Assembly: GCA_009746045.1 (NCBI GenBank)
Contig: RPFO01000594.1
Location: forward strand, 808,449-872,448
Direction of reading: 5' to 3'
DNA length: 64,000 nt
DNA from: Mesostigma viride
Lineage: Eukaryota; Streptophyta; Mesostigmatophyceae; Mesostigmatales; Mesostigmataceae
The notes beneath the pieces were generated by a model. The model was not told the origin of the DNA. It saw nothing but the letters and a program-made list of their open reading frames with translations, and did no database searches. Of the stretch, positions 4,552-63,498 are shown in pieces; positions within the stretch are counted from its first letter, which is position 1; every line of letters begins with the position of its first letter. The position numbers were made by a program, and so were the translations under genes.

Positions 4552-4689
4552 ATGCTGGTCGTGGTGGATGGAGAGGAGCTTGCCACGCAAGTGCGCACGG
4601 CGTTTGAGCGTGGCCGGCCGGAGGTGCTGCTGGAGGAACTGCGCGCATTCGTGGACGCCAAGGATGCTCAGATCGAAGAGCTTTGCAAG
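4552..4689 (+). CDS. SEC15: SEC15 exon 1
   Basis: Codes for residues 1-46, MLVVVDGEELATQVR to IEELCK. It matches the plant segment NGEDLGPFVRKTF to EIEEVCK. The ATG at 4552 is the only in-frame Met in a frame open from 4402. It leaves out the roughly 30-residue variable tail seen before this motif in Arabidopsis, so an upstream coding exon is possible. The donor is AAG|GTCCGT, phase 0. The next coding sequence that continues the alignment is 26.6 kb away. Confidence 0.85.
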
Positions 4690-7600
4690 GTCCGTTTGAC
4701 GATAACAACCGTGCTGGCCCGCCCGCGCTGGATCTTGTTTGCAAAATAGACCTCGCCATGTCTCCAGACTCGGACATTGCGCTTGTTATAGGTGGACATA
4801 ATCTCTTATTATGGTTGGAGGACAGTTCAGCATGGGACCGCGCACTAGTCTGCTTTCTGGAGGCCAGCCTTTAGAGCACGTCTGACATTGACAGATTGGT
4901 ACACCGTGGATGTTCGGGAGGCAACAATCTCCGGCCGTGCGCCTACCAGTACGGACCAAATTAGCGCTTTCCTTTCTGCTTAGCCGTTATGCTTTGGCCC
5001 AGCGGCACCGCTGCATGGGCATGGGTATGGGCTCTCCTTGCTGCATCAGCTGCAACCAGCGCACAGGGGTGGCACCTGATGCTGATTCATGTGCTTATTC
5101 AAGCGTGTAGACCACCCTGTGCCGGTGCTTGCACACAACTTCCTCCGTGCAAACCAGGCTTGCCATGCACCCCACGGGGTGCCTTGTGCTTGACTGCATG
5201 GGTAGCCCCGTTGTCTTGGGGAGCGGATATCATGGGGGATCCGATTGTGTTGTTAATAATGTTGTTAGGGTGGTAGATGAGTGTGCAAGGGGGCAGACAG
5301 CCACTCGCCACTTGAGTCGTTGCAGACAGCAGCCGCGACCATGGGAAGCGCTATTGTCTGCTGGGATGGCCACTTCTTGTCCGCGCAGCCTGGCCCGCTC
5401 ATTCTCACGCTCAATACTCTGCTTGCATGCACTATTTATGGTGTTCCCGGCCAAGCTGCGTCGCCTCCCTGGTGATCTCATGTTGTTCCCCTCGTGATCT
5501 CAAGACACTGTTGTTCCCCTCGCGATCTCAAGACACTGTTGTTCCCCTCGTGATCTCAAGACACTGTTGTTCCCCTCGTGATCTCAAGACACTGTTGTTC
5601 CCCTCGCGATCTCAAGACACTGTTGTTCCCCTCGTGATCTCAAGACACTGTTGTTCCCCTCGCGATCTCAAGACACTGTTGTTCCCCTCGCGATCTCAAG
5701 ACACTGTTGTTCCCCTCGCGATCTCAAGACACTGTTGTTCCCCTCGCGATCTCAAGACACTGTTGTTCCCCTCGCGATCTCAAGACACTGTTGTTCCCCT
5801 CGTGATCTCAAGACACTGTTGTTCCCCTCGTGATCTCAAGACACTGTTGTTCCCCTCGCGATCTCAAGACACTGTTGTTCCCCTCGTGATCTCAAGACAC
5901 TGTTGTTCCCCTCGTGATCTCAAGACACTGTTGTTCCCCTCGTGATCTCAAGACACTGTTGTTCCCCTCGTGATCTCAAGACACTGTTGTTCCCCTCGTG
6001 ATCTCAAGACACTGTTGTTCCCCTCGTGATCTCAAGACACTGTTGTTCCCCTCGTGATCTCAAGACACTGTTGTTCCCCTCGCGATCTCAAGACACTGTT
6101 GTTCCCCTCGCGATCTCAAGACACTGTTGTTCCCCTCGTGATCTCAAGACACTGTTGTTCCCCTCGTGATCTCAAGACACTGTTGTTCCCCTCGCGATCT
6201 CAAGACACTGTTGTTCCCCTCGCGATCTCAAGACACTGTTGTTCCCCTCGTGATCTCAAGACACTGTTGTTCCCCTCGCGATCTCAAGACACTGTTGTTC
6301 CCCTCGCGATCTCAAGACACTGTTGTTCCCCTCGTGATCTCAAGACACTGTTGTTCCCCTCGCGATCTCAAGACACTGTTGTTCCCCTCGTGATCTCAAG
6401 ACACTGTTGTTCCCCTCGCGATCTCAAGACACTGTTGTTCCCCTCGCGATCTCAAGACACTGTTGTTCCCCTCGTGATCTCAAGACACTGTTGTTCCCCT
6501 CGTGATCTCAAGACACTGTTGTTCCCCTCGCGATCTCAAGACACTGTTGTTCCCCTCGCGATCTCAAGACACTGTTGTTCCCCTCGCGATCTCAAGACAC
6601 TGTTGTTCCCCTCGTGATCTCAAGACACTGTTGTTCCCCTCGTGATCTCAAGACACTGTTGTTCCCCTCGCGATCTCAAGACACTGTTGTTCCCCTCGTG
6701 ATCTCAAGACACTGTTGTTCCCCTCGTGATCTCAAGACACTGTTGTTCCCCTCGTGATCTCAAGACACTGTTGTTCCCCTCGCGATCTCAAGACACTGTT
6801 GTTCCCCTCGTGATCTCAAGACACTGTTGTTCCCCTCGTGATCTCAAGACACTGTTGTTCCCCTCGCGATCTCAAGACACTGTTGTTCCCCTCGCGATCT
6901 CAAGACACTGTTGTTCCCCTCGTGATCTCAAGACACTGTTGTTCCCCTCGTGATCTCAAGACACTGTTGTTCCCCTCGCGATCTCAAGACACTGTTGTTC
7001 CCCTCGTGATCTCAAGACACTGTTGTTCCCCTCGTGATCTCAAGACACTGTTGTTCCCCTCGCGATCTCAAGACACTGTTGTTCCCCTCGCGATCTCAAG
7101 ACACTGTTGTTCCCCTCGTGATCTCAAGACACTGTTGTTCCCCTCGTGATCTCAAGACACTGTTGTTCCCCTCGCGATCTCAAGACACTGTTGTTCCCCT
7201 CGTGATCTCAAGACACTGTTGTTCCCCTCGTGATCTCAAGACACTGTTGTTCCCCTCGTGATCTCAAGACACTGTTGTTCCCCTCGTGATCTCAAGACAC
7301 TGTTGTTCCCCTCGTGATCTCAAGACACTGTTGTTCCCCTCGCGATCTCAAGACACTGTTGTTCCCCTCGTGATCTCAAGACACTGTTGTTCCCCTCGCG
7401 ATCTCAAGACACTGTTGTTCCCCTCGTGATCTCAAGACACTGTTGTTCCCCTCGTGATCTCAAGACACTGTTGTTCCCCTCGCGATCTCAAGACACTGTT
7501 GTTCCCCTCGTGATCTCAAGACACTGTTGTTCCCCTCGTGATCTCAAGACACTGTTGTTCCCCTCGTGATCTCAAGACACTGTTGTTCCCCTCGTGATCT

Positions 7601-10600
7601 CAAGACACTGTTGTTCCCCTCGCGATCTCAAGACACTGTTGTTCCCCTCGTGATCTCAAGACACTGTTGTTCCCCTCGTGATCTCAAGACACTGTTGTTC
7701 CCCTCGCGATCTCAAGACACTGTTGTTCCCCTCGTGATCTCAAGACACTGTTGTTCCCCTCGCGATCTCAAGACACTGTTGTTCCCCTCGTGATCTCAAG
7801 ACACTGTTGTTCCCCTCGCGATCTCAAGACACTGTTGTTCCCCTCGTGATCTCAAGACACTGTTGTTCCCCTCGTGATCTCAAGACACTGTTGTTCCCCT
7901 CGTGATCTCAAGACACTGTTGTTCCCCTCGTGATCTCAAGACACTGTTGTTCCCCTCGTGATCTCAAGACACTGTTGTTCCCCTCGCGATCTCAAGACAC
8001 TGTTGTTCCCCTCGTGATCTCAAGACACTGTTGTTCCCCTCGTGATCTCAAGACACTGTTGTTCCCCTCGCGATCTCAAGACACTGTTGTTCCCCTCGTG
8101 ATCTCAAGACACTGTTGTTCCCCTCGTGATCTCAAGACACTGTTGTTCCCCTCGCGATCTCAAGACACTGTTGTTCCCCTCGTGATCTCAAGACACTGTT
8201 GTTCCCCTCGTGATCTCAAGACACTGTTGTTCCCCTCGCGATCTCAAGACACTGTTGTTCCCCTCGTGATCTCAAGACACTGTTGTTCCCCTCGTGATCT
8301 CAAGACACTGTTGTTCCCCTCGTGATCTCAAGACACTGTTGTTCCCCTCGCGATCTCAAGACACTGTTGTTCCCCTCGTGATCTCAAGACACTGTTGTTC
8401 CCCTCGTGATCTCAAGACACTGTTGTTCCCCTCGTGATCTCAAGACACTGTTGTTCCCCTCGTGATCTCAAGACACTGTTGTTCCCCTCGTGATCTCAAG
8501 ACACTGTTGTTCCCCTCGCGATCTCAAGACACTGTTGTTCCCCTCGTGATCTCAAGACACTGTTGTTCCCCTCGTGATCTCAAGACACTGTTGTTCCCCT
8601 CGTGATCTCAAGACACTGTTGTTCCCCTCGTGATCTCAAGACACTGTTGTTCCCCTCGTGATCTCAAGACACTGTTGTTCCCCTCGTGATCTCAAGACAC
8701 TGTTGTTCCCCTCGTGATCTCAAGACACTGTTGTTCCCCTCGCGATCTCAAGACACTGTTGTTCCCCTCGTGATCTCAAGACACTGTTGTTCCCCTCGTG
8801 ATCTCAAGACACTGTTGTTCCCCTCGTGATCTCAAGACACTGTTGTTCCCCGCGATCTCAAGACACTGTTGTTCCCCTCGTGATCTCAAGACACTGTTGT
8901 TCCCCTCGTGATCTCAAGACACTGTTGTTCCCCTCGCGATCTCAAGACACTGTTGTTCCCCTCGTGATCTCAAGACACTGTTGTTCCCCTCGTGATCTCA
9001 AGACACTGTTGTTCCCCTCGTGATCTCAAGACACTGTTGTTCCCCTCGTGATCTCAAGACACTGTTGTTCCCCTCGTGATCTCAAGACACTGTTGTTCCC
9101 CTCGTGATCTCAAGACACTGTTGTTCCCCTCGTGATCTCAAGACACTGTTGTTCCCCTCGTGATCTCAAGACACTGTTGTTCCCCTCGTGATCTCAAGAC
9201 ACTGTTGTTCCCCTCGCGATCTCAAGACACTGTTGTTCCCCTCGTGATCTCAAGACACTGTTGTTCCCCTCGCGATCTCAAGACACTGTTGTTCCCCTCG
9301 TGATCTCAAGACACTGTTGTTCCCCTCGTGATCTCAAGACACTGTTGTTCCCCTCGTGATCTCAAGACACTGTTGTTCCCCTCGTGATCTCAAGACACTG
9401 TTGTTCCCCTCGTGATCTCAAGACACTGTTGTTCCCCTCGTGATCTCAAGACACTGTTGTTCCCCTCGTGATCTCAAGACACTGTTGTTCCCCTCGCGAT
9501 CTCAAGACACTGTTGTTCCCCTCGTGATCTCAAGACACTGTTGTTCCCCTCGTGATCTCAAGACACTGTTGTTCCCCTCGTGATCTCAAGACACTGTTGT
9601 TCCCCTCGTGATCTCAAGACACTGTTGTTCCCCTCGTGATCTCAAGACACTGTTGTTCCCCTCGTGATCTCAAGACACTGTTGTTCCCCTCGTGATCTCA
9701 AGACACTGTTGTTCCCCTCGTGATCTCAAGACACTGTTGTTCCCCTCGTGATCTCAAGACACTGTTGTTCCCCTCGTGATCTCAAGACACTGTTGTTCCC
9801 CTCGCGATCTCAAGACACTGTTGTTCCCCTCGTGATCTCAAGACACTGTTGTTCCCCTCGTGATCTCAAGACACTGTTGTTCCCCTCGTGATCTCAAGAC
9901 ACTGTTGTTCCCCTCGCGATCTCAAGACACTGTTGTTCCCCTCGTGATCTCAAGACACTGTTGTTCCCCTCGTGATCTCAAGACACTGTTGTTCCCCTCG
10001 TGATCTCAAGACACTGTTGTTCCCCTCGCGATCTCAAGACACTGTTGTTCCCCTCGTGATCTCAAGACACTGTTGTTCCCCTCGTGATCTCAAGACACTG
10101 TTGTTCCCCTCGTGATCTCAAGACACTGTTGTTCCCCTCGTGATCTCAAGACACTGTTGTTCCCCTCGCGATCTCAAGACACTGTTGTTCCCCTCGTGAT
10201 CTCAAGACACTGTTGTTCCCCTCGTGATCTCAAGACACTGTTGTTCCCCTCGTGATCTCAAGACACTGTTGTTCCCCTCGTGATCTCAAGACACTGTTGT
10301 TCCCCTCGTGATCTCAAGACACTGTTGTTCCCCTCGTGATCTCAAGACACTGTTGTTCCCCTCGTGATCTCAAGACACTGTTGTTCCCCTCGTGATCTCA
10401 AGACACTGTTGTTCCCCTCGCGATCTCAAGACACTGTTGTTCCCCTCGTGATCTCAAGACACTGTTGTTCCCCTCGTGATCTCAAGACACTGTTGTTCCC
10501 CTCGTGATCTCAAGACACTGTTGTTCCCCTCGTGATCTCAAGACACTGTTGTTCCCCTCGTGATCTCAAGACACTGTTGTTCCCCTCGTGATCTCAAGAC

Positions 10601-13600
10601 ACTGTTGTTCCCCTCGTGATCTCAAGACACTGTTGTTCCCCTCGTGATCTCAAGACACTGTTGTTCCCCTCGTGATCTCAAGACACTGTTGTTCCCCTCG
10701 TGATCTCAAGACACTGTTGTTCCCCTCGTGATCTCAAGACACTGTTGTTCCCCTCGTGATCTCAAGACACTGTTGTTCCCCTCGCGATCTCAAGACACTG
10801 TTGTTCCCCTCGTGATCTCAAGACACTGTTGTTCCCCTCGTGATCTCAAGACACTGTTGTTCCCCTCGTGATCTCAAGACACTGTTGTTCCCCTCGTGAT
10901 CTCAAGACACTGTTGTTCCCCTCGTGATCTCAAGACACTGTTGTTCCCCTCGTGATCTCAAGACACTGTTGTTCCCCTCGTGATCTCAAGACACTGTTGT
11001 TCCCCTCGTGATCTCAAGACACTGTTGTTCCCCTCGTGATCTCAAGACACTGTTGTTCCCCTCGTGATCTCAAGACACTGTTGTTCCCCTCGTGATCTCA
11101 AGACACTGTTGTTCCCCTCGTGATCTCAAGACACTGTTGTTCCCCTCGTGATCTCAAGACACTGTTGTTCCCCTCGTGATCTCAAGACACTGTTGTTCCC
11201 CTCGTGATCTCAAGACACTGTTGTTCCCCTCGTGATCTCAAGACACTGTTGTTCCCCTCGTGATCTCAAGACACTGTTGTTCCCCTCGTGATCTCAAGAC
11301 ACTGTTGTTCCCCTCGTGATCTCAAGACACTGTTGTTCCCCTCGTGATCTCAAGACACTGTTGTTCCCCTCGTGATCTCAAGACACTGTTGTTCCCCTCG
11401 TGATCTCAAGACACTGTTGTTCCCCTCGTGATCTCAAGACACTGTTGTTCCCCTCGCGATCTCAAGACACTGTTGTTCCCCTCGTGATCTCAAGACACTG
11501 TTGTTCCCCTCGTGATCTCAAGACACTGTTGTTCCCCTCGCGATCTCAAGACACTGTTGTTCCCCTCGTGATCTCAAGACACTGTTGTTCCCCTCGTGAT
11601 CTCAAGACACTGTTGTTCCCCTCGTGATCTCAAGACACTGTTGTTCCCCTCGTGATCTCAAGACACTGTTGTTCCCCTCGTGATCTCAAGACACTGTTGT
11701 TCCCCTCGTGATCTCAAGACACTGTTGTTCCCCTCGTGATCTCAAGACACTGTTGTTCCCCTCGTGATCTCAAGACACTGTTGTTCCCCTCGTGATCTCA
11801 AGACACTGTTGTTCCCCTCGCGATCTCAAGACACTGTTGTTCCCCTCGTGATCTCAAGACACTGTTGTTCCCCTCGTGATCTCAAGACACTGTTGTTCCC
11901 CTCGTGATCTCAAGACACTGTTGTTCCCCTCGTGATCTCAAGACACTGTTGTTCCCCTCGTGATCTCAAGACACTGTTGTTCCCCTCGTGATCTCAAGAC
12001 ACTGTTGTTCCCCTCGTGATCTCAAGACACTGTTGTTCCCCTCGTGATCTCAAGACACTGTTGTTCCCCTCGTGATCTCAAGACACTGTTGTTCCCCTCG
12101 TGATCTCAAGACACTGTTGTTCCCCTCGTGATCTCAAGACACTGTTGTTCCCCTCGTGATCTCAAGACACTGTTGTTCCCCTCGTGATCTCAAGACACTG
12201 TTGTTCCCCTCGTGATCTCAAGACACTGTTGTTCCCCTCGTGATCTCAAGACACTGTTGTTCCCCTCGTGATCTCAAGACACTGTTGTTCCCCTCGTGAT
12301 CTCAAGACACTGTTGTTCCCCTCGTGATCTCAAGACACTGTTGTTCCCCTCGTGATCTCAAGACACTGTTGTTCCCCTCGTGATCTCAAGACACTGTTGT
12401 TCCCCTCGCGATCTCAAGACACTGTTGTTCCCCTCGTGATCTCAAGACACTGTTGTTCCCCTCGTGATCTCAAGACACTGTTGTTCCCCTCGTGATCTCA
12501 AGACACTGTTGTTCCCCTCGTGATCTCAAGACACTGTTGTTCCCCTCGTGATCTCAAGACACTGTTGTTCCCCTCGTGATCTCAAGACACTGTTGTTCCC
12601 CTCGTGATCTCAAGACACTGTTGTTCCCCTCGTGATCTCAAGACACTGTTGTTCCCCTCGTGATCTCAAGACACTGTTGTTCCCCTCGTGATCTCAAGAC
12701 ACTGTTGTTCCCCTCGTGATCTCAAGACACTGTTGTTCCCCTCGTGATCTCAAGACACTGTTGTTCCCCTCGTGATCTCAAGACACTGTTGTTCCCCTCG
12801 TGATCTCAAGACACTGTTGTTCCCCTCGTGATCTCAAGACACTGTTGTTCCCCTCGCGATCTCAAGACACTGTTGTTCCCCTCGTGATCTCAAGACACTG
12901 TTGTTCCCCTCGTGATCTCAAGACACTGTTGTTCCCCTCGTGATCTCAAGACACTGTTGTTCCCCTCGTGATCTCAAGACACTGTTGTTCCCCTCGTGAT
13001 CTCAAGACACTGTTGTTCCCCTCGTGATCTCAAGACACTGTTGTTCCCCTCGTGATCTCAAGACACTGTTGTTCCCCTCGTGATCTCAAGACACTGTTGT
13101 TCCCCTCGTGATCTCAAGACACTGTTGTTCCCCTCGTGATCTCAAGACACTGTTGTTCCCCTCGTGATCTCAAGACACTGTTGTTCCCCTCGTGATCTCA
13201 AGACACTGTTGTTCCCCTCGTGATCTCAAGACACTGTTGTTCCCCTCGTGATCTCAAGACACTGTTGTTCCCCTCGTGATCTCAAGACACTGTTGTTCCC
13301 CTCGTGATCTCAAGACACTGTTGTTCCCCTCGTGATCTCAAGACACTGTTGTTCCCCTCGTGATCTCAAGACACTGTTGTTCCCCTCGTGATCTCAAGAC
13401 ACTGTTGTTCCCCTCGTGATCTCAAGACACTGTTGTTCCCCTCGTGATCTCAAGACACTGTTGTTCCCCTCGTGATCTCAAGACACTGTTGTTCCCCTCG
13501 TGATCTCAAGACACTGTTGTTCCCCTCGTGATCTCAAGACACTGTTGTTCCCCTCGTGATCTCAAGACACTGTTGTTCCCCTCGTGATCTCAAGACACTG

Positions 13601-52600: not shown

Positions 52601-55600
52601 GTGCTGGTGTGTGTGTGAGATGGGATCACCCGAGCACATGGCTGACATGGGTGCTGGTGTGTGTGTGAGATGGGATCACCCGAGCACATGGCTGACATGG
52701 GTGCTGGTGTGTGTGTGAGATGGGATCACCCGAGCACATGGCTGACATGGGTGCTGGTGTGTGTGTGAGATGGGATCACCCGAGCACATGGCTGACATGG
52801 GTGCTGGTGTGTGTGTGAGATGGGATCACCCGAGCACATGGCTGACATGGGTGCTGGTGTGTGTGTGAGATGGGATCACCCGAGCACATGGCTGACATGG
52901 GTGCTGGTGTGTGTGTGAGATGGGATCACCCGAGCACATGGCTGACATGGGTGCTGGTGTGTGTGTGAGATGGGATCACCCGAGCACATGGCTGACATGG
53001 GTGCTGGTGTGTGTGTGAGATGGGATCACCCGAGCACATGGCTGACATGGGTGCTGGTGTGTGTGTGAGATGGGATCACCCGAGCACATGGCTGACATGG
53101 GTGCTGGTGTGTGTGTGAGATGGGATCACCCGAGCACATGGCTGACATGGGTGCTGGTGTGTGTGTGAGATGGGATCACCCGAGCACATGGCTGACATGG
53201 GTGCTGGTGTGTGTGTGAGATGGGATCACCCGAGCACATGGCTGACATGGGTGCTGGTGTGTGTGTGAGATGGGATCACCCGAGCACATGGCTGACATGG
53301 GTGCTGGTGTGTGTGTGAGATGGGATCACCCGAGCACATGGCTGACATGGGTGCTGGTGTGTGTGTGAGATGGGATCACCCGAGCACATGGCTGACATGG
53401 GTGCTGGTGTGTGTGTGAGATGGGATCACCCGAGCACATGGCTGACATGGGTGCTGGTGTGTGTGTGAGATGGGATCACCCGAGCACATGGCTGACATGG
53501 GTGCTGGTGTGTGTGTGAGATGGGATCACCCGAGCACATGGCTGACATGGGTGCTGGTGTGTGTGTGAGATGGGATCACCCGAGCACATGGCTGACATGG
53601 GTGCTGGTGTGTGTGTGAGATGGGATCACCCGAGCACATGGCTGACATGGGTGCTGGTGTGTGTGTGAGATGGGATCACCCGAGCACATGGCTGACATGG
53701 GTGCTGGTGTGTGTGTGAGATGGGATCACCCGAGCACATGGCTGACATGGGTGCTGGTGTGTGTGTGAGATGGGATCACCCGAGCACATGGCTGACATGG
53801 GTGCTGGTGTGTGTGTGAGATGGGATCACCCGAGCACATGGCTGACATGGGTGCTGGTGTGTGTGTGAGATGGGATCACCCGAGCACATGGCTGACATGG
53901 GTGCTGGTGTGTGTGTGAGATGGGATCACCCGAGCACATGGCGGACATGGGTGCTGGTGTGTGTGTGAGATGGGATCACCCGAGCACATGGCGGACATGG
54001 GTGCTGGTGTGTGTGTGAGATGGGATCACCCGAGCACATGGCGGACATGGGTGCTGGTGTGTGTGTGAGATGGGATCACCCGAGCACATGGCTGACATGG
54101 GTGCTGTGTGTGTGTGTGAGATGGGATCACCCGAGCACATGGCGACATGGGTGCTGGTGTGTGTGTGAGATGGGATCACCCGAGCACATGGCTGACATGG
54201 GTGCTGGTGTGTGTGTGAGATGGGATCACCCGAGCACATGGCTGACATGGGTGCTGGTGTGTGTGTGAGATGGGATCACCCGAGCACATGGCTGACATGG
54301 GTGCTGGTGTGTGTGTGAGATGGGATCACCCGAGCACATGGCTGACATGGGTGCTGGTGTGTGTGTGAGATGGGATCACCCGAGCACATGGCTGACATGG
54401 GTGCTGGTGTGTGTGTGAGATGGGATCACCCGAGCACATGGCTGACATGGGTGCTGGTGTGTGTGTGAGATGGGATCACCCGAGCACATGGCTGACATGG
54501 GTGCTGGTGTGTGTGTGAGATGGGATCACCCGAGCACATGGCTGACATGGGTGCTGGTGTGTGTGTGAGATGGGATCACCCGAGCACATGGCTGACATGG
54601 GTGCTGGTGTGTGTGTGAGATGGGATCACCCGAGCACATGGCTGACATGGGTGCTGGTGTGTGTGTGAGATGGGATCACCCGAGCACATGGCTGACATGG
54701 GTGCTGGTGTGTGTGTGAGATGGGATCACCCGAGCACATGGCTGACATGGGTGCTGGTGTGTGTGTGAGATGGGATCACCCGAGCACATGGCTGACATGG
54801 GTGCTGGTGTGTGTGTGTGAGATGGGATCACCCGAGCACATGGCTGACATGGGTGCTGGTGTGTGAGATGGGATCACCCGAGCACATGGCTGACATGGGT
54901 GCTGGTGTGTGTGTGAGATGGGATCACCCGAGCACATGGCTGACATGGGTGCTGGTGTGTGTGTGAGATGGGATCACCCGAGCACATGGCGGACATGGGT
55001 GCTGGTGTGTGTGTGAGATGGGATCACCCGAGCACATGGCTGACATGGGTGCTGTGTGTGTGTGTGAGATGGGATCACCCGAGCACATGGCTGACATGGG
55101 TGCTGGTGTGTGTGTGAGATGGGATCACCCGAGCACATGGCTGACATGGGTGCTGGTGTGTGTGTGAGATGGGATCACCCGAGCACATGGCTGACATGGG
55201 TGCTGGTGTGTGTGTGAGATGGGATCACCCGAGCACATGGCTGACATGGGTGCTGGTGTGTGTGTGAGATGGGATCACCCGAGCACATGGCTGACATGGG
55301 TGCTGGTGTGTGTGTGAGATGGGATCACCCGAGCACATGGCTGACATGGGTGCTGGTGTGTGTGTGAGATGGGATCACCCGAGCACATGGCTGACATGGG
55401 TGCTGGTGTGTGTGTGAGATGGGATCACCCGAGCACATGGCTGACATGGGTGCTGGTGTGTGTGTGAGATGGGATCACCCGAGCACATGGCTGACATGGG
55501 TGCTGGTGTGTGTGTGAGATGGGATCACCCGAGCACATGGCTGACATGGGTGCTGGTGTGTGTGTGAGATGGGATCACCCGAGCACATGGCTGACATGGG

Positions 55601-58600
55601 TGCTGGTGTGTGTGTGAGATGGGATCACCCGAGCACATGGCTGACATGGGTGCTGGTGTGTGTGTGAGATGGGATCACCCGAGCACATGGCTGACATGGG
55701 TGCTGGTGTGTGTGTGAGATGGGATCACCCGAGCACATGGCTGACATGGGTGCTGGTGTGTGTGTGAGATGGGATCACCCGAGCACATGGCTGACATGGG
55801 TGCTGGTGTGTGTGTGAGATGGGATCACCCGAGCACATGGCGGACATGGGTGCTGGTGTGTGTGTGAGATGGGATCACCCGAGCACATGGCTGACATGGG
55901 TGCTGGTGTGTGTGTGAGATGGGATCACCCGAGCACATGGCTGACATGGGTGCTGGTGTGTGTGTGAGATGGGATCACCCGAGCACATGGCGGACATGGG
56001 TGCTGGTGTGTGTGTGAGATGGGATCACCCGAGCACATGGCTGACATGGGTGCTGGTGTGTGTGTGAGATGGGATCACCCGAGCACATGGCTGACATGGG
56101 TGCTGGTGTGTGTGTGAGATGGGATCACCCGAGCACATGGCTGACATGGGTGCTGGTGTGTGTGTGAGATGGGATCACCCGAGCGTGCGTCGGTAAGGGG
56201 CGCGTGGGATGCCTGGCATGCGTGCGCGTGTTGCGGATGAAATCGCGGCCCCTGGAGAAACAGATTTCTTGGCTGTTTTCAAGCACCTTTCCCTGTGACA
56301 GCTGGGGACTCGCGGCATTGTGCCCATCTCAACATATCCATCGGCTTTCTTCACGCCAACTTCGATCCTATAGAGCAACAAAAACACCGTGACGGGTAGA
56401 CGAAAATCTTGTCTTCTTTGCAACACCTCTCGCTTTCTCCGCCCGGTTGTTCGGAACGACTTGCCGCCGCGCCCGCAGCTGCGCTCCTTCCTCGTGCTCC
56501 CCGAGGAGTGGACGCCCGAGGTGGCGCCGAGTGGGCCCTCTGAGTACCTGTCCGACCTGGTGGCCTACCTGCGCACGGTGCTGGAGACGTCGCTGCGGCT
56601 GCTGCCGGCTGTCACGGTGCACACACTCCACGTGATGGCGCTGCAGCTGGTGGCCGACGCGCTGCTCGAGAAGGTGGGGGATACAAGGGGTGTGAGAAGG
56701 TGGGGGAGGTGGCATTGTTGCTTGAGAAGGTGGGGGATACAAGGGGTGTGAGAAGGTGGGGGAGGTGGCATTGTTGCTTGAGAAGGCGGGGGATACAAGG
56801 GGTGTGAGAAGGTGGGGGAGGTGGCATTGTTGCTTGAGAAGGCGGGGGATACAAGGGGTGTGAGAAGGTGGGGGAGGTGGCATTGTTGCTTGAGAAGGTG
56901 GGGGATGCAAGGGGTGTGAGAAGGTGGGGGAGGTGGCATTGTTGCTTGAGAAGGCGGGGGATACAAGGGGTGTGAGAAGGTGGGGGAGGTGGCATTGTTG
57001 CTCGAGAAGGCGGGGGATGCAAGGGGTGTGAGAAGGTGGGGGAGGTGGCATTTTGCTCGAGAAGGTGGGGGATACAAGGGGTGTGAGAAGGTGGGGGAGG
57101 TGGCATTGTTGCTCGAGAAGGTGGGGGATGCAAGGGATGTTGAGAGGGTGGGCAATATGGCATTGTTGCTCGAGAAGGCGGGGTTAGATGGGATGTTGAG
57201 AGGGTGGCGAAGCTGGAATTATTGCTCGAGGCGGGGCGTATAAGGGATGTTTAGATGGTGGCGAAGGTGGGAGAGTGGCCATGTCGTGGGAAGAGGTGTG
57301 TGTGCCCCGTGTGGCGCCGTGGGAGTCGCACCGGCCACTTAGTCAGACCCTGGCGGTGCATTCTGCATCCATGTCCATGAGGGGCGCGCGGCTGGTGGTG
57401 GGTCACGCGGGATGAGCTGCGGAAAGCAATGAGCTTGGTGTGGGCTCACCCTGGCGGGCTTTCCACACGTTCGTGTTGACGGTGTATTCCATATAGATAT
57501 TTTCCATGGCTTTAATTTGTCCCCATGTATTCATCCTATTTCATGACGTTACAAGTTACCTAGTATGTGCACCCATTTCTGCTCGTGCGGGCTTTCATGG
57601 TCCCGCCGCATGGGTGGAGTGTGAGTAAGCCAGGAACTCGCCACCCATGTTCAGCTCACGTGGCGCAGTCTACGTGTCAATAAACTCATGTTCAGCACTG
57701 CCAGGTAGACACCAGTAATTTGCCATGTTCGTGTACATGACATCCGCCCCTGACGAGTTCAAGTGGACCCGTTTGTGCCCTCCCTTCTTGCCTTGCTCCC
57801 CCCCCCCCAGCTGAGCAGCGACGCGGTGAAGGGTTTCAACATGCGCGCGATTGAGGGGCTGGACCTGGACGTTACGGTGCTGGAAGCGTTTGCCGACGAC
57901 CGCACTGCGGTGGCCATCAACGCGCGCACCACGCCCGTCCCCGTGGGTGAGTCGCCGATGTCGCGAAATTCTGGTGACAGTTTTACGACATGCGGGCCGC
58001 TTTGATGGTGATGTATGTCCCAATGATAGGAGCGTTGAGAGTTGCCCTATTTACGGCGGTATCCGTGACTACAACCGAAGTGTACTCTTGGGGTGTCAGC
58101 GACAGGGCTGATAGGCACTACAGAAGTGGGCAAGTGCGTGCATGTGCCCAAAGCACAGGCCCAAGCGGTTGGGTGCAAGCGGGTGAACAAACTAGCATGT
58201 CTGAGCGAGCATGTGGCAGCTCAACCAGGAATGCTGACAACCACAGCCAGGGCCCCCGGTCTGAATATATATTCGGAGTCTGCATAAGGCTACACATTTT
58301 CACCTCCATTCATTTCCATCATCCTGAACAACTCGACAAATGCGGATAAGATAATGGCAGGCTTGAGCTACCATGGCCCAGATGCTCCAGATGTGTGACC
58401 GGCGCTGCTTGTCTCGTTGATATACGCAGTCTGTTTCTCTCAAAGGATCCATTTTTCTATATTTTACCACGCAGCTCTATAGATATGACTGTGCCAGCAT
58501 CTATAGACCTATTTACAGATGCGGTAGCGCTAGCACAAGACTCACCCTGTGCGCCAGCCGATTCAAGGGTCGTTGCCGCCAAATGCCTGAAGATGAGACT

Positions 58601-59604
58601 GCACCCCAGCTTCGGGCGGCCAATTGGACAAGACTCCAAGCAAATGACTTTGTAATATGTATGACTTTGTTCTACTTGGTGGAGAAGGCTGGCGATCCCA
58701 ATTCTTGAGTAACGTCTGAGCACGGCCTTGGTGAGGGTCCTTGCGGGTTGTTTTTGGCCAAGGCAAGCCGTGATTGGTCCAAAGATTGACCCATTTGGCC
58801 TGCTGAGCTTGTTATCGTCATGATTGATGAATCCCCACCCACCCACCCACCCACCCAATGGAAAACATCCTGCGTGTTTTGTTCGGCCGTTGTTCTTCGG
58901 CCGTTTCCGTTCGGCCTTTGTTCCCCCGTGAGCAGGCGGCAGCGGCACCAATGCGACGGGCGTCAGCAATGAGCTGGCGAAGCTGTTCAAGGAGTCGCTG
59001 CCACTCAAGGAGTGCATGTCGGGCCCGCGCCACCTCATCAACTTCTTCAAGCGCGCGTGCGTGGAGGAGGACGAGACGCTGCTGGCAGGGAACGTCAAGG
59101 ACAAGTTCTTCCCCCACATGAAGAAGGCACAGGTGAGGGGGTGCTTTTCTCCCAGTTATTCATAAAAAGGAAGCGGCGCAGGTGCTTTCCCCCCCTGAAC
59201 AATGTGCAGGTGCATCCCCACCATTCCAGGCTCTGTCTACTTCGTGCCGTGGGCATCGGGGGATGGGTTCTCTTGTGTCCCCTTGATCTGTCTCACGCGA
59301 TCTGCGGCGTTCTCTTGGTCAGCGGGTTGCCTTCCCCACATGTCTGTTTTTCCTATGGTGCAGTTGCCATTTCCTGACAATCATAAGCCACAGAAGGCAA
59401 TGGAAGTGTCACATTAGCAGCGACTTACGTTGTCCGCCACGCCTCAACTTGGCACTGTTGCTCCTTTCCCTGCAGGTGGCTACAATTTTGGACAAGTACA
59501 GGAAGGCCCCTAGTGCTGGCCTCTTTGGGATGAAAAACAAGAAGCGCGACCCCCGGAAGAGCACCGTGTATGCGTGCGCCAGGCTGTTGCGAGCGTCTCC
59601 TTAA
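4552..59604 (+). CDS. SEC15: Exocyst complex subunit SEC15 (14 exons, 55-kb gene)
   Basis: SEC15 belongs to the eight-subunit exocyst, which tethers secretory vesicles to the plasma membrane before SNARE fusion; in yeast and animals it binds the vesicle Rab GTPase and SEC10. The joined exons are 4552-4689, 31258-31362, 31814-32053, 34412-34661, 37251-37445, 38249-38484, 39253-39379, 40182-40343, 40737-41114, 41490-41795, 56479-56673, 57811-57946, 58936-59132 and 59476-59604. They give about 930 residues, against about 790 in Arabidopsis SEC15. Similarity to the plant protein, as I remember it, runs collinearly from the N-terminal GEEL motif through the SEC15 C-terminal domain to the final KVATI-type segment. 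Every junction has AG before the exon and GT (GC once) after it. Eleven of 13 introns are phase 0; intron 6 is phase 2 and intron 12 is phase 1. Extra length comes from linkers in exons 9 and 10. Exon 4 needs a one-base correction at a G run. Introns 1 and 10 are giant satellite arrays. Confidence 0.93.
4690..5471 (+). other. SEC15 intron 1, single-copy 5' part
   Basis: The first 782 bases of the 26,568-bp intron (4690-31257), before the satellite begins. No gene or obvious repeat was recognised. Short open frames here have no recognisable product and lie inside the intron. Confidence 0.7.
5472..30468 (+). repeat. 28-bp satellite array, about 890 copies, in SEC15 intron 1
   Basis: A 25-kb head-to-tail array with a 28-bp period; the unit core is TCCCCTCGTGATCTCAAG followed by ACACTGTTGT. 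The main variant is T or C in CTCG(T/C)GATC. C units are frequent from 5.5 to about 8.5 kb and from about 25.5 to 30.4 kb, sparse between, and absent by eye from about 12,870 to 20,050. Shortened units (22, 23 or 26 bp) lie near the edges, for example at 5471-5481, 8848, 25597, 26070, 26523 and many sites from 27.2 to 30.4 kb. The period is 1 mod 3, so three copies run through all frames and give 28-residue periodic open frames, which I treat as artefacts. The unit has no CAG or TAG trinucleotide on the sense strand. There are no spacers, so this is not a CRISPR array. Confidence 0.98.
27491..29855 (+). repeat. Higher-order repeat inside the right edge of the 28-bp array
   Basis: Shortened units mark a superstructure. 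The 23-bp units recur at 27491, 27850, 28209 and 28456, with spacings of 359, 359 and 247 bp (12 or 8 full units plus one short). The 22-bp units recur at 29117, 29475, 29721 and 29855, with spacings of 358, 246 and 134 bp. Scoring each unit as T or C, the 13-unit block TCCTTTTTTCCTC followed by the 9-unit block TCCTTCCTC occurs at 27850-28456 and again at 29117-29721. Confidence 0.8.
30469..30640 (+). other. Intron 1 sequence after the satellite
   Basis: A poly-T run and a partial unit (GCGATCTCAC near 30484) show the decay of the array edge. The rest is single-copy with a short GGGGCAG-containing duplication near 30540-30570. Nothing else was seen. Confidence 0.5.
30641..30880 (+). repeat. 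48-bp minisatellite, 5 copies
   Basis: Copies start at 30641, 30689, 30737, 30785 and 30833, each beginning with GGTGGTGGCCAGCAGCTCAT (30833 has GATTGTGG at the join). The period is a multiple of 3, so one frame reads a 16-residue repeat (MVVASSSF-L-VGVGR). Differences between copies change amino acids freely, and the region is intronic, so it is not called coding. Confidence 0.9.
30932..31150 (+). repeat. 7-bp GGGGCAT minisatellite, about 30 copies
   Basis: A near-perfect GGGGCAT run to about 31095, then degenerate copies (GGCGTGA, GGCATGA, GGCACGA). Four-G runs every 7 bases on the sense strand make G-quadruplex formation plausible in DNA and pre-mRNA. Open frames on both strands here are repeat artefacts. 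Confidence 0.95.
31169..31252 (+). repeat. TGTGTTGCG-type short repeat just before exon 2
   Basis: Eight or nine imperfect copies of a TGTGTTGCG / TGCGTGCG word run directly into the exon 2 acceptor (GCGCCAG at 31251-31257). The acceptor therefore has no ordinary pyrimidine tract; its upstream bases are a G/T repeat. Confidence 0.8.
31258..31362 (+). CDS. SEC15: SEC15 exon 2
   Basis: Thirty-five codons, VHYEEFIRSVDDLVGVKD to HAARVQ, residues 47-81. It continues exon 1 exactly as plant SEC15 does (CKAHYQDFIHAVDDL). It is phase 0 on both sides. The donor is CAG|GTTCGT. This match across the 26.6-kb gap is the main proof that the satellite lies inside the gene. Confidence 0.92.
31363..31813 (+). 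other. SEC15 intron 2 with a copied splice donor and a 25-bp repeat
   Basis: At 31391-31424, 48 bp downstream, there is a second copy of the exon 2 end plus donor: GCCGCGCGCGTGCA followed by AGTGTGTGGTGG, against AGGTTCGTGGTGG at the real site. A 25-bp repeat runs from 31663 to about 31750 in four copies, starting at 31663, 31688, 31713 and 31738 (CCGGTTGCTGCATCATG). Confidence 0.8.
31814..32053 (+). CDS. SEC15: SEC15 exon 3
   Basis: Eighty codons, HYGGELLTQQEQLLSVHQ to ILSLLVRTQ, residues 82-161. It includes SLISQGALYPALHTLGAIE, equivalent to the plant HLQSGNFYMALKCVDSIE helix. The acceptor is GCGCCAG and the donor is CAG|GTGGGT, both phase 0. Confidence 0.92.
32040..32214 (+). repeat. 49-bp minisatellite that spans the exon 3 / intron 3 donor
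   Basis: The exon end and donor, GTGCGCACGCAG|GTGGGTGG, recur every 49 bp, with the cAG|GT junction at 32053 and its copies at 32102, 32151 and 32200. Between them lies GGGATGTTATGTGGGTGGGC. Each copy keeps a full GTGGGT donor and also a GCAG that could act as an acceptor. Confidence 0.9.
32391..33801 (+). repeat. 25/26-bp minisatellite, about 55 copies, in intron 3
   Basis: A G/T-rich array built from GGATGGGTTGTGGGTGG plus either TTGTGGGT (25 bp) or CATGCGGGT (26 bp), in mixed order, with a few shorter units. Runs of GGG on the sense strand are dense. All six frames are nearly free of stops, which gives long His/Pro/Thr-rich or Gly/Trp-rich open frames; these are artefacts of the repeat. 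Confidence 0.95.
33802..34411 (+). other. SEC15 intron 3, 3' part
   Basis: About 600 bp of single-copy intron sequence. A CACCCCACCACCACCAC-type run lies near 34125-34145. It ends in a conventional acceptor, a pyrimidine tract followed by TTTCCCTGCAG. No gene was recognised. Confidence 0.7.
34412..34661 (+). CDS. SEC15: SEC15 exon 4 (frame break at a G run)
   Basis: The exon starts VPAARRHIENIVTREFNEWM and runs to AAQRKKQ in one frame, matching plant IPAIRSYVERKV-EFGDWLV. After a 17-G run at 34553-34569 the sense continues in the +1 frame as AMSSSGPTSADVVYELLPARE, with donor GAG|GTGCGT. The exon is 250 nt, while its neighbours need a multiple of 3 (phase 0 on both sides). So the assembled run has one G too many or two too few. 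The insert codes for a Gly/Ala-rich linker in a part of SEC15 that varies between species. Confidence 0.85.
34662..34808 (+). other. Start of SEC15 intron 4
   Basis: Short intron lead-in with a G-rich run near 34705-34732. Nothing else was seen before the duplicated block begins. Confidence 0.5.
34809..36597 (+). repeat. Two tandem copies of a repeat unit in intron 4 (1,175 bp and 613 bp)
   Basis: Copy 1 (34809-35984) and copy 2 (35984-36597) begin with the same segment (TATCCGAGCTTTTGCTCACC, then GCGGGACTACGGAAGTC). Both continue through a CAGCGCCAGCGC-rich part containing two KpnI-like GGTACC words, and both end with the same 164-bp segment (35820-35984 and 36433-36597; GTGGCAGCCACCCAAAGACC). 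Copy 1 has about 650 bp in the middle (35166-35819) that copy 2 lacks. Copy 1 carries a small hairpin TCTACCGC-GCGGTAGA near 34955. I do not recognise an element family and see no transposase. Confidence 0.8.
36737..37052 (+). repeat. Dispersed inverted motif (CGCAACTTAACGCGGT) in intron 4
   Basis: ACCGCGTTAAGTTGCGA at 36737 faces TCGCAACTTAACGCGGT at about 36774. Further direct copies lie at about 36794 and 37003, and a degenerate one at about 37036 (TCGCAGCTTAACGCTGT). The inverted pair could be the ends of a small MITE-like element, with the others its relatives, but no target duplication was identified. Confidence 0.55.
37053..37250 (+). other. End of SEC15 intron 4
   Basis: Single-copy sequence ending in the acceptor GCCGGCAG at 37250. 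No feature was recognised. Confidence 0.6.
37251..37445 (+). CDS. SEC15: SEC15 exon 5
   Basis: Sixty-five codons, VLGSEHPVDKKDLLSLHKCL to DSYKPFLAQ, residues about 245-309. YIFKCLGKLSDFQESYVTNR aligns with the plant HTCLGVPERFREYYYRNR motif. The exon must end at the CAG at 37445, because exon 6 continues the plant FFAQIAGFF match. That makes the donor CAG|GCACGT, a GC donor. Confidence 0.9.
37446..38248 (+). other. SEC15 intron 5 (GC-AG) with three internal duplications
   Basis: It starts with GCACGT and ends with CTGCACAG. It holds a pair about 73-77 bp apart at 37540-37651 (TATTGAGCACGCAGG, AGCTGTTGACAAGAGCA). It also holds a tandem pair of about 93 bp at 37778-37965 (GCTCTTGGTACCTT, CCCATCGTTGCGCTTAGT). 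Third, at about 38006-38060 there is a degenerate copy of the acceptor region and start of exon 6 (CACCCTGC, ATCTTGGGCTTTTTTCCAG, TGGAGG). Confidence 0.75.
38249..38484 (+). CDS. SEC15: SEC15 exon 6
   Basis: Codes for IVGFFLVEDKTLRTADG through ALWEAAAEKIQSLVWTQFD to FMQLVLATLG, residues about 310-388. IVGFFLVEDKTLRT is nearly the plant IAGFFIVEDRVLRT, the most recognisable SEC15 signature here. The exon ends two bases into an Arg codon (phase 2) before GTAGGT; reading on would hit TAG at once. The second half carries a linker not in Arabidopsis (RQPLARGATPDASHNIAP). Confidence 0.95.
38485..39252 (+). other. SEC15 intron 6
   Basis: A 768-bp intron with donor GTAGGT and acceptor CTCGCCAG. It contains a 23-G run at 38875-38897 and is otherwise single-copy. 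No gene was seen. Confidence 0.8.
39253..39379 (+). CDS. SEC15: SEC15 exon 7
   Basis: Completes the split Arg codon, then YGLKMSNLEATMVRCMRRYQ to IKADRYQQ, residues about 388-430. It matches plant RRYGYPVDALLEVLSKHRDKYHELL to ALAADKFEQM. It is 127 nt, 1 plus 42 codons, with donor CAG|GTAGGG in phase 0. Confidence 0.93.
39380..40181 (+). other. SEC15 intron 7
   Basis: An 802-bp intron with a GATGCACGATG / GATGGATGAT short repeat at about 39466-39545, a 12-bp GTGGATGTGGGC repeat of about four copies at 39977-40028, and a C run at 40165-40176 ahead of the acceptor CCGCCAG. No gene was seen. Confidence 0.8.
40182..40343 (+). CDS. SEC15: SEC15 exon 8
   Basis: Fifty-four codons, VLIGSPVMHQNLVVAYQL to ELISVLKNYVE, residues about 431-484. 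STIPYYAAFSHGVPELISVL matches plant PAFPYIAPFSTTVPDCCRIV, the start of the SEC15 C-terminal helical domain. The donor is GAG|GTGAGC, phase 0. Confidence 0.94.
40344..40736 (+). other. SEC15 intron 8 with two relics of the exon 8 donor region
   Basis: The real junction is CTGAAGAACTATGTAGAG|GTGAGCGC. Within the intron, similar strings occur at 40383 (CTGCCGAAGAACGATGTCGAG then GAGAGA) and 40441 (GCAGAACTATGTCGAG then GTTAGCGCC). They are spaced about 58 bp apart. The last keeps a GT. The remainder is single-copy, ending CCCGCAG. Confidence 0.75.
40737..41114 (+). CDS. SEC15: SEC15 exon 9 with a low-complexity insert
   Basis: It opens DCFSALETSHGS, then about 75 residues rich in Asn, Ser, Thr, Gly and Ala (VANSDASTRSNTNTVGG; NASNANTPGGGATPGGS), then an acidic stretch (HEDDVAASADD). 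It resumes at GISLHSALKECLDAILRGAV to ASLAVPQAMQ, matching plant YDVVKKYLDRLLGEVLDEAL to SVHGVSQAMQ. The insert has no plant counterpart and is probably a flexible loop. Phase 0 at both ends; donor CAG|GTGGGT. Confidence 0.92.
41115..41489 (+). other. SEC15 intron 9
   Basis: A 375-bp intron with an 18-G run at 41127-41144 just inside the donor and a C run at about 41391. CCAATCATG words near 41411 and 41472 are a minor duplication. It ends GTGCTGCCAG. No gene was seen. Confidence 0.8.
41490..41795 (+). CDS. SEC15: SEC15 exon 10
   Basis: One hundred and two codons, VVSNIGSLLQACDALARHVA to VVLRLTEEK, residues about 611-712. The first 28 residues match plant VAANMAVFERACDFFFRHAAHLSG. The rest is a charged, probably helical or coiled stretch with an internal near-duplication (LRSWEVLAREVRLNDELARE, then MRSWEVLARLQEE), longer than in plants. 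Donor AAG|GTACGC, phase 0. Confidence 0.92.
41796..41904 (+). other. Start of giant intron 10
   Basis: About 110 bp of single-copy sequence after the donor, ending in the palindrome ATGCCAGGCAT at 41889-41899 and CCACGC. A reversed counterpart lies beyond the far end of the array. Confidence 0.6.
41905..56184 (+). repeat. 50-bp satellite array, about 285 copies, in SEC15 intron 10
   Basis: A 14.3-kb head-to-tail array; the unit contains GAGATGGGATCACCCGAGCA, CATGGC(T/G)GACATGGGTGCT and a GT run. The main variant is T or G in GGC(T/G)GAC. Both are mixed from 41.9 to about 49.4 kb and from about 53.9 kb to the end; all units from about 49,440 to 53,930 are T by eye. Other variants change the GT run length (extra GTGT near 42731, 43243, 43392, 43500, 43953, 44057, 45061, 48161) or lose bases (47450, 47890, 48344, 54143, 54865). 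Each unit has a GTGAG donor-like word but no CAG or TAG. No spacers are present and the open frames are artefacts. Confidence 0.98.
44041..45900 (+). repeat. Higher-order blocks within the 50-bp array
   Basis: Scoring units as G or T at the variable base, 44.07-45.06 kb reads G5 T4 then GGTGTGGTGGT and ends with a long-GT unit. The next block, 45.06-45.9 kb, reads G4 T2 then GGTGTGGTGGT and ends with another altered GT unit. The shared 11-unit order and the boundary marker point to duplication of a block of about 17-20 units. Confidence 0.7.
56185..56478 (+). other. End of giant intron 10
   Basis: Single-copy sequence containing ATGCCTGGCAT at 56209-56219, the inverted counterpart of the left flank. 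It ends CGCCCGCAG at 56478, with a pyrimidine-rich stretch near 56405-56450. Confidence 0.7.
56479..56673 (+). CDS. SEC15: SEC15 exon 11
   Basis: Sixty-five codons, LRSFLVLPEEWTPEVAPSG to QLVADALLEK, residues about 713-777. GPSEYLSDLVAYLRTVLETS matches plant GGNEYMNEVLIYLETLVSTA. It joins exon 10 in phase 0 across the 14.7-kb intron, at a place where the plant protein is continuous. Donor GAGAAG|GTGGGG. Confidence 0.94.
56662..57245 (+). repeat. 56-bp minisatellite that spans the exon 11 / intron 11 donor
   Basis: The last bases of exon 11 plus the donor (TGCTCGAGAAG|GTGGGGGAT) recur every 55-56 bp about ten times, with GAGAAG(GT/GC)GGGG at about 56668, 56724, 56780, 56836, 56892, 56948, 57004, 57059, 57115 and 57171. 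Copies decay to the right. About half keep GT after AAG and half have GC. Within each unit TGTGAGAAGGTGGGGGAGG supplies another donor-like word. Open frames on both strands here are artefacts. Confidence 0.92.
57246..57810 (+). other. SEC15 intron 11, 3' part
   Basis: Single-copy intron sequence with no gene recognised. It ends in a C run (57798-57808) that forms the pyrimidine tract, then CAG at 57810. Confidence 0.7.
57811..57946 (+). CDS. SEC15: SEC15 exon 12
   Basis: Codes for LSSDAVKGFNMRAIEGLDLD to AINARTTPVPV, residues about 778-823. It matches plant CGDLVKRLSMAAIKGLDVDIQLLDSFTE. It ends one base into a Gly codon (phase 1) before GTGAGT, the best consensus donor in the gene. Confidence 0.93.
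57947..58935 (+). other. SEC15 intron 12
   Basis: A 989-bp intron. An (ACCC)6 microsatellite lies at 58834-58857 and a triple TTCGGCC(G/T)TT motif at about 58880-58917. It ends GTGAGCAG. No gene was recognised. Confidence 0.8.
58936..59132 (+). CDS. SEC15: SEC15 exon 13
   Basis: Completes the Gly codon, then GSGTNATGVSNELAKLFKES to FFPHMKKAQ, residues about 823-888. ECMSGPRHLINFFKRACVEE is the counterpart of plant EMKKAFVEIRQMINLLLSSH. It is 197 nt, 2 plus 65 codons; donor CAG|GTGAGG. Confidence 0.92.
59133..59475 (+). other. SEC15 intron 13
   Basis: A 343-bp intron with donor GTGAGG and acceptor TTTCCCTGCAG. No repeat or gene was seen. Confidence 0.85.
59476..59604 (+). CDS. SEC15: SEC15 exon 14 (terminal)
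   Basis: Forty-two codons plus TAA: VATILDKYRKAPSAGLFGM, KNKKRDPRKSTV, YACARLLRASP. The first part matches plant KVATVSEKFRDPSDSIFGTF and KNKS. The last 11 residues match less well but have nearly the plant length. A GTGTATG donor-like word at 59567 leaves room for an alternative last exon. Repeat DNA begins within a few bases of the stop. Confidence 0.85.
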   Translation: MATILDKYRKAPSAGLFGMKNKKRDPRKSTVYACARLLRASP

Positions 59605-63322: not shown

Positions 63323-63442
63323 TTCCATCATCATTCCGTCATCATTCCGTCATCGCGGCTCACAGAAGGGCACCAGCCTTATGCTGGCATCTGCCACCCC
63401 TATAGTGACCCTATAGTGACCGCGGCCTAGGGTGGGGTATCA
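63323..63442 (+). repeat. Short tandem duplications before the telomeric block
   Basis: ATCATTCCGTC occurs twice near 63330-63352 and CTATAGTGACC twice at 63401-63421. The latter, and TTATGCTGGCATC near 63378, recur near 63660-63708, so this stretch shares an ancestor with the duplicated block downstream. Confidence 0.6.
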
Positions 63443-63498
63443 CCCTAAACCCTAAACCCTAAACCCTAAACCCTAAACCCTAAACCCTAAACCCTAAC
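63443..63498 (+). repeat. Interstitial plant-type telomere repeat (CCCTAAA)8
   Basis: Seven perfect CCCTAAA units and a final CCCTAAC. On the complementary strand this is TTTAGGG, the telomere repeat of most plants and many green algae. Unique sequence continues on both sides, so it is interstitial. Confidence 0.95.

Follow-up and report, generated by a model that had tools for sequence, protein, structure and literature searches.

How does a gene with 2794 nt of coding sequence come to occupy 55,053 nt, most of it tandem satellite, and how might its transcript still be made and spliced? We addressed this question at the SEC15 locus of Mesostigma viride in a window of 64,000 nt (the whole stretch of DNA analysed, C1989:808449-872448). 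Genome-wide searches covered a 439.9-Mb assembly of 2243 contigs.

A single SEC15 gene encloses both arrays

The gene model was rebuilt from the sequence. It has 14 exons, and the coding share is 5.1%, in agreement with the initial annotation, which gave about 2.8 kb of coding sequence in 55 kb. The exons can be joined with good splice sites, as had been proposed: 12 of the 13 introns are GT-AG and one (intron 5) is GC-AG, and the acceptor is CAG in all 13. The accompanying statement that phases are consistent across the exons did not hold, as the two halves of exon 4 lie in different frames around a run of G. The features of the gene are as follows.

4552..4689, + strand: exon 1; start codon, 46 aa, ends EELCK, donor GTCCGT; profile match and alignment
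4690..31257, + strand: intron 1; 26,568 nt, 94% satellite
31258..31362, + strand: exon 2; starts VHYEEF; model and profile match
31814..32053, + strand: exon 3; profile match; overlaps the genome's one EXOC6_Sec15_N match
34412..34661, + strand: exon 4; 250 nt; frame break in the 17-G run at 34553-34569
37251..37445, + strand: exon 5; model and profile match; followed by the GC-AG intron
37446..38248, + strand: intron 5; GC-AG; the published model Mesvir1 22855 uses the same junction
38249..38484, + strand: exon 6; model and profile match
39253..39379, + strand: exon 7; weak profile match; identical in Mesvir1 22855
40182..40343, + strand: exon 8; weak profile match; identical in Mesvir1 22855
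40737..41114, + strand: exon 9; weak profile match; identical in Mesvir1 22855
41490..41795, + strand: exon 10; model and profile match
41796..56478, + strand: intron 10; 14,683 nt, 97% satellite
56479..56673, + strand: exon 11; profile match; holds the genome's one Sec15_C match
57811..57946, + strand: exon 12; model and profile match
58936..59132, + strand: exon 13; model; identical in Mesvir1 22855
59476..59604, + strand: exon 14; stop codon; model; identical in Mesvir1 22855

To identify the gene, we used a profile made from four plant SEC15 proteins, run on the 2831 six-frame open segments of the window with at least 20 residues each. At E ≤ 0.5 this gave 12 matches, all on the + strand and collinear with the model, which correspond to exons 1-12. 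Nine of them had E values of 0.0053 or better and those of exons 7, 8 and 9 were weak (E 0.13-0.19); exons 13 and 14 had no match at E ≤ 0.5 in the six frames of the window. The point on which the placement of the larger array depends is the junction of exons 1 and 2. Exon 1 by itself matches the profile (4558-4695, E 5.4e-10) at profile positions 25-70, and exon 2 matches positions 68-103. In the alignment with the four plant proteins, EELCK at the end of exon 1 is followed without a gap by VHYEEF at the start of exon 2, which bears out the earlier argument that these residues are adjacent in plant SEC15 and that the 25-kb array is intragenic.

The joined product is 32-35% identical to the four plant SEC15 proteins and collinear with them from N to C terminus, so that, with the ordered profile matches of exons 1-12, it does follow plant SEC15 from end to end as claimed; the last 13 C-terminal residues align poorly. 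A search of the joined protein against exocyst profiles had been suggested as a check. With X placed at the frame break, both domains scored above their Pfam cut-offs: EXOC6_Sec15_N at 1.7e-32 (113.1 bits; cut-off 27.2) and Sec15_C at 8.3e-35 (121.1 bits; cut-off 28.3). In the 440 Mb of the genome, each family has one match at E ≤ 0.001, PF20651 (EXOC6_Sec15_N) overlapping exon 3 and PF04091 (Sec15_C) within exon 11 of this gene. The gene is thus SEC15, encoding an exocyst subunit; it is single in the genome, and both large arrays lie inside its introns.

Satellites and smaller repeats in the introns

Tandem Repeats Finder delimits array 1 at 5481-30468 (period 28, 895.1 copies, 98% matches) and array 2 at 41904-56184 (period 50, 285 copies, 98% matches). 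Together they cover 39,269 nt, or 71.3% of the gene, matching the earlier figures of about 39.3 kb and 71%; they account for 94% of intron 1 and 97% of intron 10. The 895 units of array 1 divide into 748 of a T-type and 130 of a C-type, named for one site, and 17 others. Introns 1, 3, 10 and 11 each have different repeat units (Tandem Repeats Finder), and at two exons the repeat includes the exon end and its donor.

5481..30468, + strand: 28-bp satellite (array 1), 895 units, intron 1
30639..30883, + strand: 48-bp minisatellite, 5 copies, intron 1
32042..32211, + strand: 49-bp repeat, 3.5 copies; the last 12 nt of exon 3 and the donor are copied into intron 3
32404..33802, + strand: 25/50-bp G-rich minisatellite, intron 3
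41904..56184, + strand: 50-bp satellite (array 2), 285 units, intron 10
56663..57230, + strand: 56-bp repeat, 10 copies; starts in exon 11 and copies the exon end and donor into intron 11

Allowing up to two mismatches, the 28-mer occurs 879 times in forward and 0 times in reverse orientation genome-wide, and the counts in the window are the same 879 and 0. The 28-bp satellite is therefore private to SEC15 intron 1, and its distribution would most simply be accounted for if it was born there. The 50-bp unit, with up to three mismatches, was counted 265 times in the window.

Two further observations concern these introns. Near-palindromic words flank the 50-bp array at 41880-41906 and 56184-56225 (ATGCCAGGCATCC and GGATGCCTGGCAT); they are mutual reverse complements, which may be due to chance. 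Intron 4 contains, at 34810-36600, two near copies of one sequence (at about 34814 and 35980) that look by eye like a mobile element.

Exon 4 and the published model

The upstream half of exon 4 reads ...AAQRKKQGG and the downstream half reads ...SADVVYELLPARE in a different frame, with 17 G between them (34553-34569). The G run sits in a linker that is poorly conserved among plant SEC15 proteins, and the break is most simply read as a miscount of bases in the run.

The best protein match of SEC15 is EukProt jgi/Mesvir1/22855/Mv20107-RA.2, with 100% identity over 74% of the query. This published model (Mesvir1 22855, P0001) begins in intron 4, lacks exons 1-4, is identical for exons 5-14 and joins exon 10 to exon 11 across array 2. 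A start in intron 4 is what would be expected if gene prediction stumbled at the frame break in exon 4. No separate protein model for exons 1-4 was found among 766 candidates in a search limited to proteins of about 114-364 aa (0.55-1.75 times as long as the query), and therefore no independent model crosses intron 1. The published Mesvir1 models, which are at least partly computed, cross two introns of this kind, SEC15 intron 10 and an intron of a lysyl-tRNA synthetase (LysRS) gene, and they are the sole evidence bearing on the junctions across arrays.

Reliability of the assembled array lengths

The published assembly was built from PacBio RSII subreads with an N50 of 11.2 kb, using Canu, gap filling by PBJelly and Illumina polishing (PMC6947507). 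Because this N50 is shorter than both arrays, the array lengths are doubtful. Arrays that are real and intronic may have been assembled at the wrong length, with unresolved consensus interiors and with stretches duplicated or collapsed, and we judge the chance of this to be a little under even. Evidence for it comes from array 1, where variant units number 8-13 per 25 near both ends and 0 over the middle; they are common in the outer 3-5 kb or so at each end, become sparse over about 8 kb and disappear beyond that, leaving 256 identical units in a row. Near the right end, a block of 45 units, about 1.2 kb long, occurs twice at a shift of 46 units; the two copies are distinguished at three sites only, each time by an identical single-base change.

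12871..20038, + strand: unbroken run of 256 identical 28-bp units (monomer index 264-519); may reflect consensus averaging
27688..30190, + strand: 45-unit block present twice (27688-28926 and 28955-30190); possible assembly seam

The doubled block looks like an unmerged overlap, and the uniform middle may represent either true homogenisation or a consensus of unplaceable reads. A U-shaped profile of variants would, however, also be expected from unequal exchange, which homogenises the middle of an array. Array 2 is asymmetric, being variant-rich on the left over about 6.5 kb with fewer variants on the right, and this is harder to attribute to read anchoring alone. The arrays are also each bracketed by sites at 4675, 38901 and 59556 that we take to be BspQI-type label sites. 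Optical mapping served to detect conflicts in the published assembly (PMC6947507). The assembled counts of 895.1 and 285 agree with the approximately 890 and 285 copies given initially, but the exact array sizes are less certain, given the uniform middle and the doubled block.

Array-filled introns in other genes

The initial annotation treated SEC15 by implication as unique, and this did not stand: a LysRS gene and a kinesin gene of the same genome also have long introns filled with arrays. The stretch C1989:1200001-1210000, met as an arbitrary sample of the genome, is wholly a 32-bp repeat. The array extends from 1193250 to about 1210559, and the same repeat was read in the probes at 1196001 and 1198001; 1193301-1196000 and 1198301-1200000 fall between the stretches read. 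It is flanked by exons for neighbouring parts of a bacterial-type LysRS, the left one ending ...GFLEIETPTLQ|GTGCAT at 1193102 and the right one starting at 1211052, which gives an intron of 17,949 nt. The joined pieces (218 residues) match NCBIfam PRK00484 at 7.9e-73 with 245.8 bits, below the whole-protein cut-off of 468, and the closest named relatives are plant chloroplast/mitochondrial LysRS.

The published model Mesvir1 22865 (P0039) joins the two LysRS exons directly across the 32-bp array. Part of its protein is the translation of a 22-bp repeat found in this assembly, which means that the model derives from this assembly or from one almost identical to it. Neither the locus nor Mesvir1 22865 has a recognisable exon for what we take to be motif 2, and this LysRS copy may be defective or only partly assembled. 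Across the gene (C1989:1186301-1217682), tandem arrays of 41, 32, 22, 21, 25, 30 and 31 bp lie between the exons.

As yardsticks for intron length we used two gene families. For kinesins, we took introns separating motor exons with neighbouring profile positions, using 119 of 129 rows. The median of these 32 introns is 604 nt, and 31 of them are at most 1223 nt long; the remaining one, on C1579, measures 7,808 nt and showed a 60-bp tandem repeat in four of five probes. Two kinesin exon gaps with missing profile positions were also probed, and one of the eight probes was wholly tandem, three were partly so and four were not. For the chaperonin family (TCP1; 56 of 58 rows used), 23 introns have a median of 691 nt and the longest is 4,081 nt. 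This longest CCT intron (on C1641) carries an insertion of about 3.1 kb, LTR-like and bounded by repeated ends, that is absent from a 97-99% identical copy on C887, and we accordingly rejected satellite growth as the cause of the difference between the two copies. A further difference between them, of a single unit in the copy number of a 43-bp repeat, shows that units are gained or lost. They lie at C1641:63548-67934 and C887:345845-347056 and are either allelic or a recent duplication.

All four examined introns of at least 7.8 kb, in three genes (SEC15, LysRS and kinesin), are satellite-filled; only the kinesin intron was chosen by length alone, SEC15 being given and LysRS having been found through its array. 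The next-longest intron examined is the CCT intron of 4,081 nt, explained by the transposon-like insertion. Intron growth by tandem arrays has thus taken place in at least two other genes of this genome, and array-filled long introns look like a recurrent feature of the genome rather than a peculiarity of SEC15.

How widespread are such arrays? Our genome sample consisted of 15 existing stretches, of which two were the window flanks and the rest arbitrary; eight were on C1989, one was all N and one half N. Tandem repeats made up 22% of the 144,766 sampled bases (N included in the total). The readable stretches numbered 14, 13 of them 10 kb long and the last 4.8 kb; eight were on C1989, including the two window flanks. 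One of the 14 was wholly tandem. On contig C1, none of 18 readable 600-base probes was wholly tandem (two further probes were N), and neither were the two probes on C2122 and C2134. We therefore rejected the idea that giant arrays are everywhere, given 0/18 and 0/2 against 1/14 in the first sample; they are unevenly spread in the genome.

Proposed origin and splicing of the arrays

We favour, with a probability of about 0.8, the explanation that stretches of SEC15 introns grew in tandem into satellites that are carried as passengers, transcribed and spliced out. Its observed basis is the gene, its exon order, the arrays within introns, the privacy of the 28-bp unit and the absence of YAG from the sense repeat units; from these we infer the mode of growth, the transcription and the splicing. 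Two short intron stretches would have been duplicated in tandem and expanded by slippage or unequal exchange into the satellites that fill introns 1 and 10. With the arrays as mere passengers, the primary transcript would read through them, and the spliceosome would join exon 1 to exon 2 and exon 10 to exon 11, the outer splice sites being intact and the sense units having no YAG. The initial annotation stressed what it would cost a cell to transcribe and splice past so many copies. Transcripts of 55 kb are not extreme among animals, and because of this the burden on the cell is lighter than that wording implied; the oddity lies in what the introns contain and in how large the arrays are for a unicellular alga.

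Several other explanations of the locus have to be weighed against passenger arrays. Exons 1 and 2 could come from different places and have been joined through the repeat during assembly, since few reads would be able to span 25 kb. This is very improbable: the 28-bp unit is found nowhere else in the assembly, leaving no second assembled array to confuse with the first, and the flanks hold neighbouring parts of a single gene, correctly ordered and on the correct strand, with the family profiles matching only here at E ≤ 0.001. There is similarly little to be said for separate transcription of exon 1 followed by trans-splicing to exons 2-14, or for the use of an alternative first exon. The published model, beginning in intron 4 and lacking exons 1-4, would be compatible with either, but its start just after the frame break explains the loss better, and exon 1, whose sequence the four plant proteins share, is found in cis on the strand of the other exons. 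If the gene were a decaying pseudogene, array growth would be unconstrained; the exon 4 frame break and the poorly aligned 13 C-terminal residues could be taken as signs of such decay. We consider it unlikely to a high degree, because at E ≤ 0.001 the genome has no second SEC15 match, the remaining 13 exons have open frames and intact splice sites, and the break falls in a 17-G run of a poorly conserved linker, where base-count errors are expected. Finally, the arrays might be selected for a role, for example in chromatin formation or in slowing SEC15 output. An indirect point in favour is that Drosophila Y genes with satellite introns require dedicated factors (PMC6508621). Against this, the units differ between introns and between genes, and the 28-bp unit, the one with a genome-wide count, is private, so that a selected role has only a slim chance of being correct.

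If arrays are passengers that must be spliced out, their content of 3' splice-site trinucleotides (YAG, which is CAG or TAG) may matter. Per kb, YAG occurs 0 times in the sense and 35.5 times in the antisense strand of the 28-bp array, 0 and 35.2 times in the 50-bp array, and 0.1 and 62.4 times in 10 kb of the LysRS 32-bp array; non-array SEC15 intron has 29.4 and 30.2. An array without acceptors would yield few cryptic exons, whatever its number of donor-like sites. For units of 28, 50 and 32 bp, the chance that a random unit from this intron has no YAG in sense and at least one in antisense is 0.27, 0.19 and 0.27, and the joint chance is about 0.014, for a test picked after the data had been seen. 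There are counter-examples, namely the 48-bp array (61 sense, 0 antisense per kb) and the 60-bp kinesin array (67 and 33). A strand rule for all arrays was rejected: among 10 arrays, seven were lower in sense (one by a single site), two were higher and one was equal, and a sign test was not significant. The YAG pattern, being post hoc and having counter-examples, is thus a lead only. It leads us to a tentative proposal, to which we give appreciably less than even odds: the upper tail of intron lengths in M. viride may consist mainly of private minisatellites born within single introns of ordinary genes, those reaching tens of kb being the ones without sense 3' splice-site trinucleotides, so that splicing would filter array growth.

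Comparison with known systems

VNTRs in human genes have units of tens of bases and some are intronic; they are usually far shorter than the SEC15 arrays. For the VNTR of ABCA7, a length of 10,000 bp is stated (PMC6857246). A closer likeness is the "sequence stuttering" of genes on avian dot chromosomes, where intron motifs are locally expanded, some of them copying an exon edge and splice site (PMC12954441). As far as the available text of that source describes them, the avian repeats resemble those of SEC15 in being locally born and intronic, with units of tens to hundreds of bases and intact exons, and in the copying of an exon edge with its splice site, here by the 49-bp (exon 3) and 56-bp (exon 11) repeats. 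They differ in being imperfect, less organised and mainly confined to one chromosome class, whereas the SEC15 arrays have about 98% matches and an assembled length of 14-25 kb; moreover, the avian case concerns bird dot microchromosomes and SEC15 here belongs, by protein match, to a green alga.

In intron content, the Drosophila Y genes kl-3, kl-5 and ORY are the nearer parallel, as they have satellite-filled introns and need dedicated RNA-binding proteins (PMC6508621). The introns of a protein-coding gene are mostly tandem satellite in both cases (94% and 97% here). The Drosophila introns, as described in the accessible part of that work, are of megabase size, consist of simple satellites (AATAT, AAGAC) and belong to genes expressed in spermatocytes (PMC6508621), whereas the SEC15 introns measure 26.6 and 14.7 kb, have other units and occur in housekeeping-like genes. 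On this analogy, the SEC15 case would be bird-like in origin and fly-like in intron content and a member of neither group.

For Mesostigma viride, a mean intron of 1141.9 bp has been reported, the second longest among the species compared, with repeats making up 30.1% of intron space, and the size of the genome was credited to LTR elements (PMC6947507). The portions of that text available to us do not describe satellite-filled introns; they do describe full-length cDNA, RNA-seq and optical-map data (PMC6947507). The NIES-296 assembly has 441.8 Mb in 2363 scaffolds (PMC6947507) and the CCAC 1140 assembly 281 Mb (PMC7027972). We found no account of satellite-filled introns in an alga in the open-access literature, subscription journals and preprints being mostly outside the scope of the search. 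Among open-access papers on intron gigantism, none concerned an alga by its title or the start of its abstract, and the accessible parts of PMC8226300, PMC11228838, PMC5741210 and PMC7754599 give no description of satellite-filled introns.

The initial observation is sound and slightly overstated, and it is more telling as one case of something that recurs in this genome. Earlier work on satellite-filled introns has dealt with male fertility genes on fly Y chromosomes and, where the repeats are smaller, with bird dot chromosomes. If our explanation is true, arrays can grow in single-copy genes that ordinary growing cells presumably need, and a unicellular relative of land plants would offer a tractable test of the limits on repeat growth in transcribed DNA. 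There is a practical side as well: the published SEC15 model is missing exons 1-4, and similar truncation may affect other genes that adjoin such arrays.

Neighbourhood of the gene

Three features of the window lie outside SEC15. A 738-aa open reading frame at 59842-62058 (+ strand), with a reverse transcriptase domain (RVT_1, 1.4e-24), starts about 240 bp after the SEC15 stop codon, and one of 791 aa occupies 203-2578 on the - strand. At 63442-63497, inside the contig, there are eight perfect copies of ACCCTAA, which we take to be the plant-type telomere unit.
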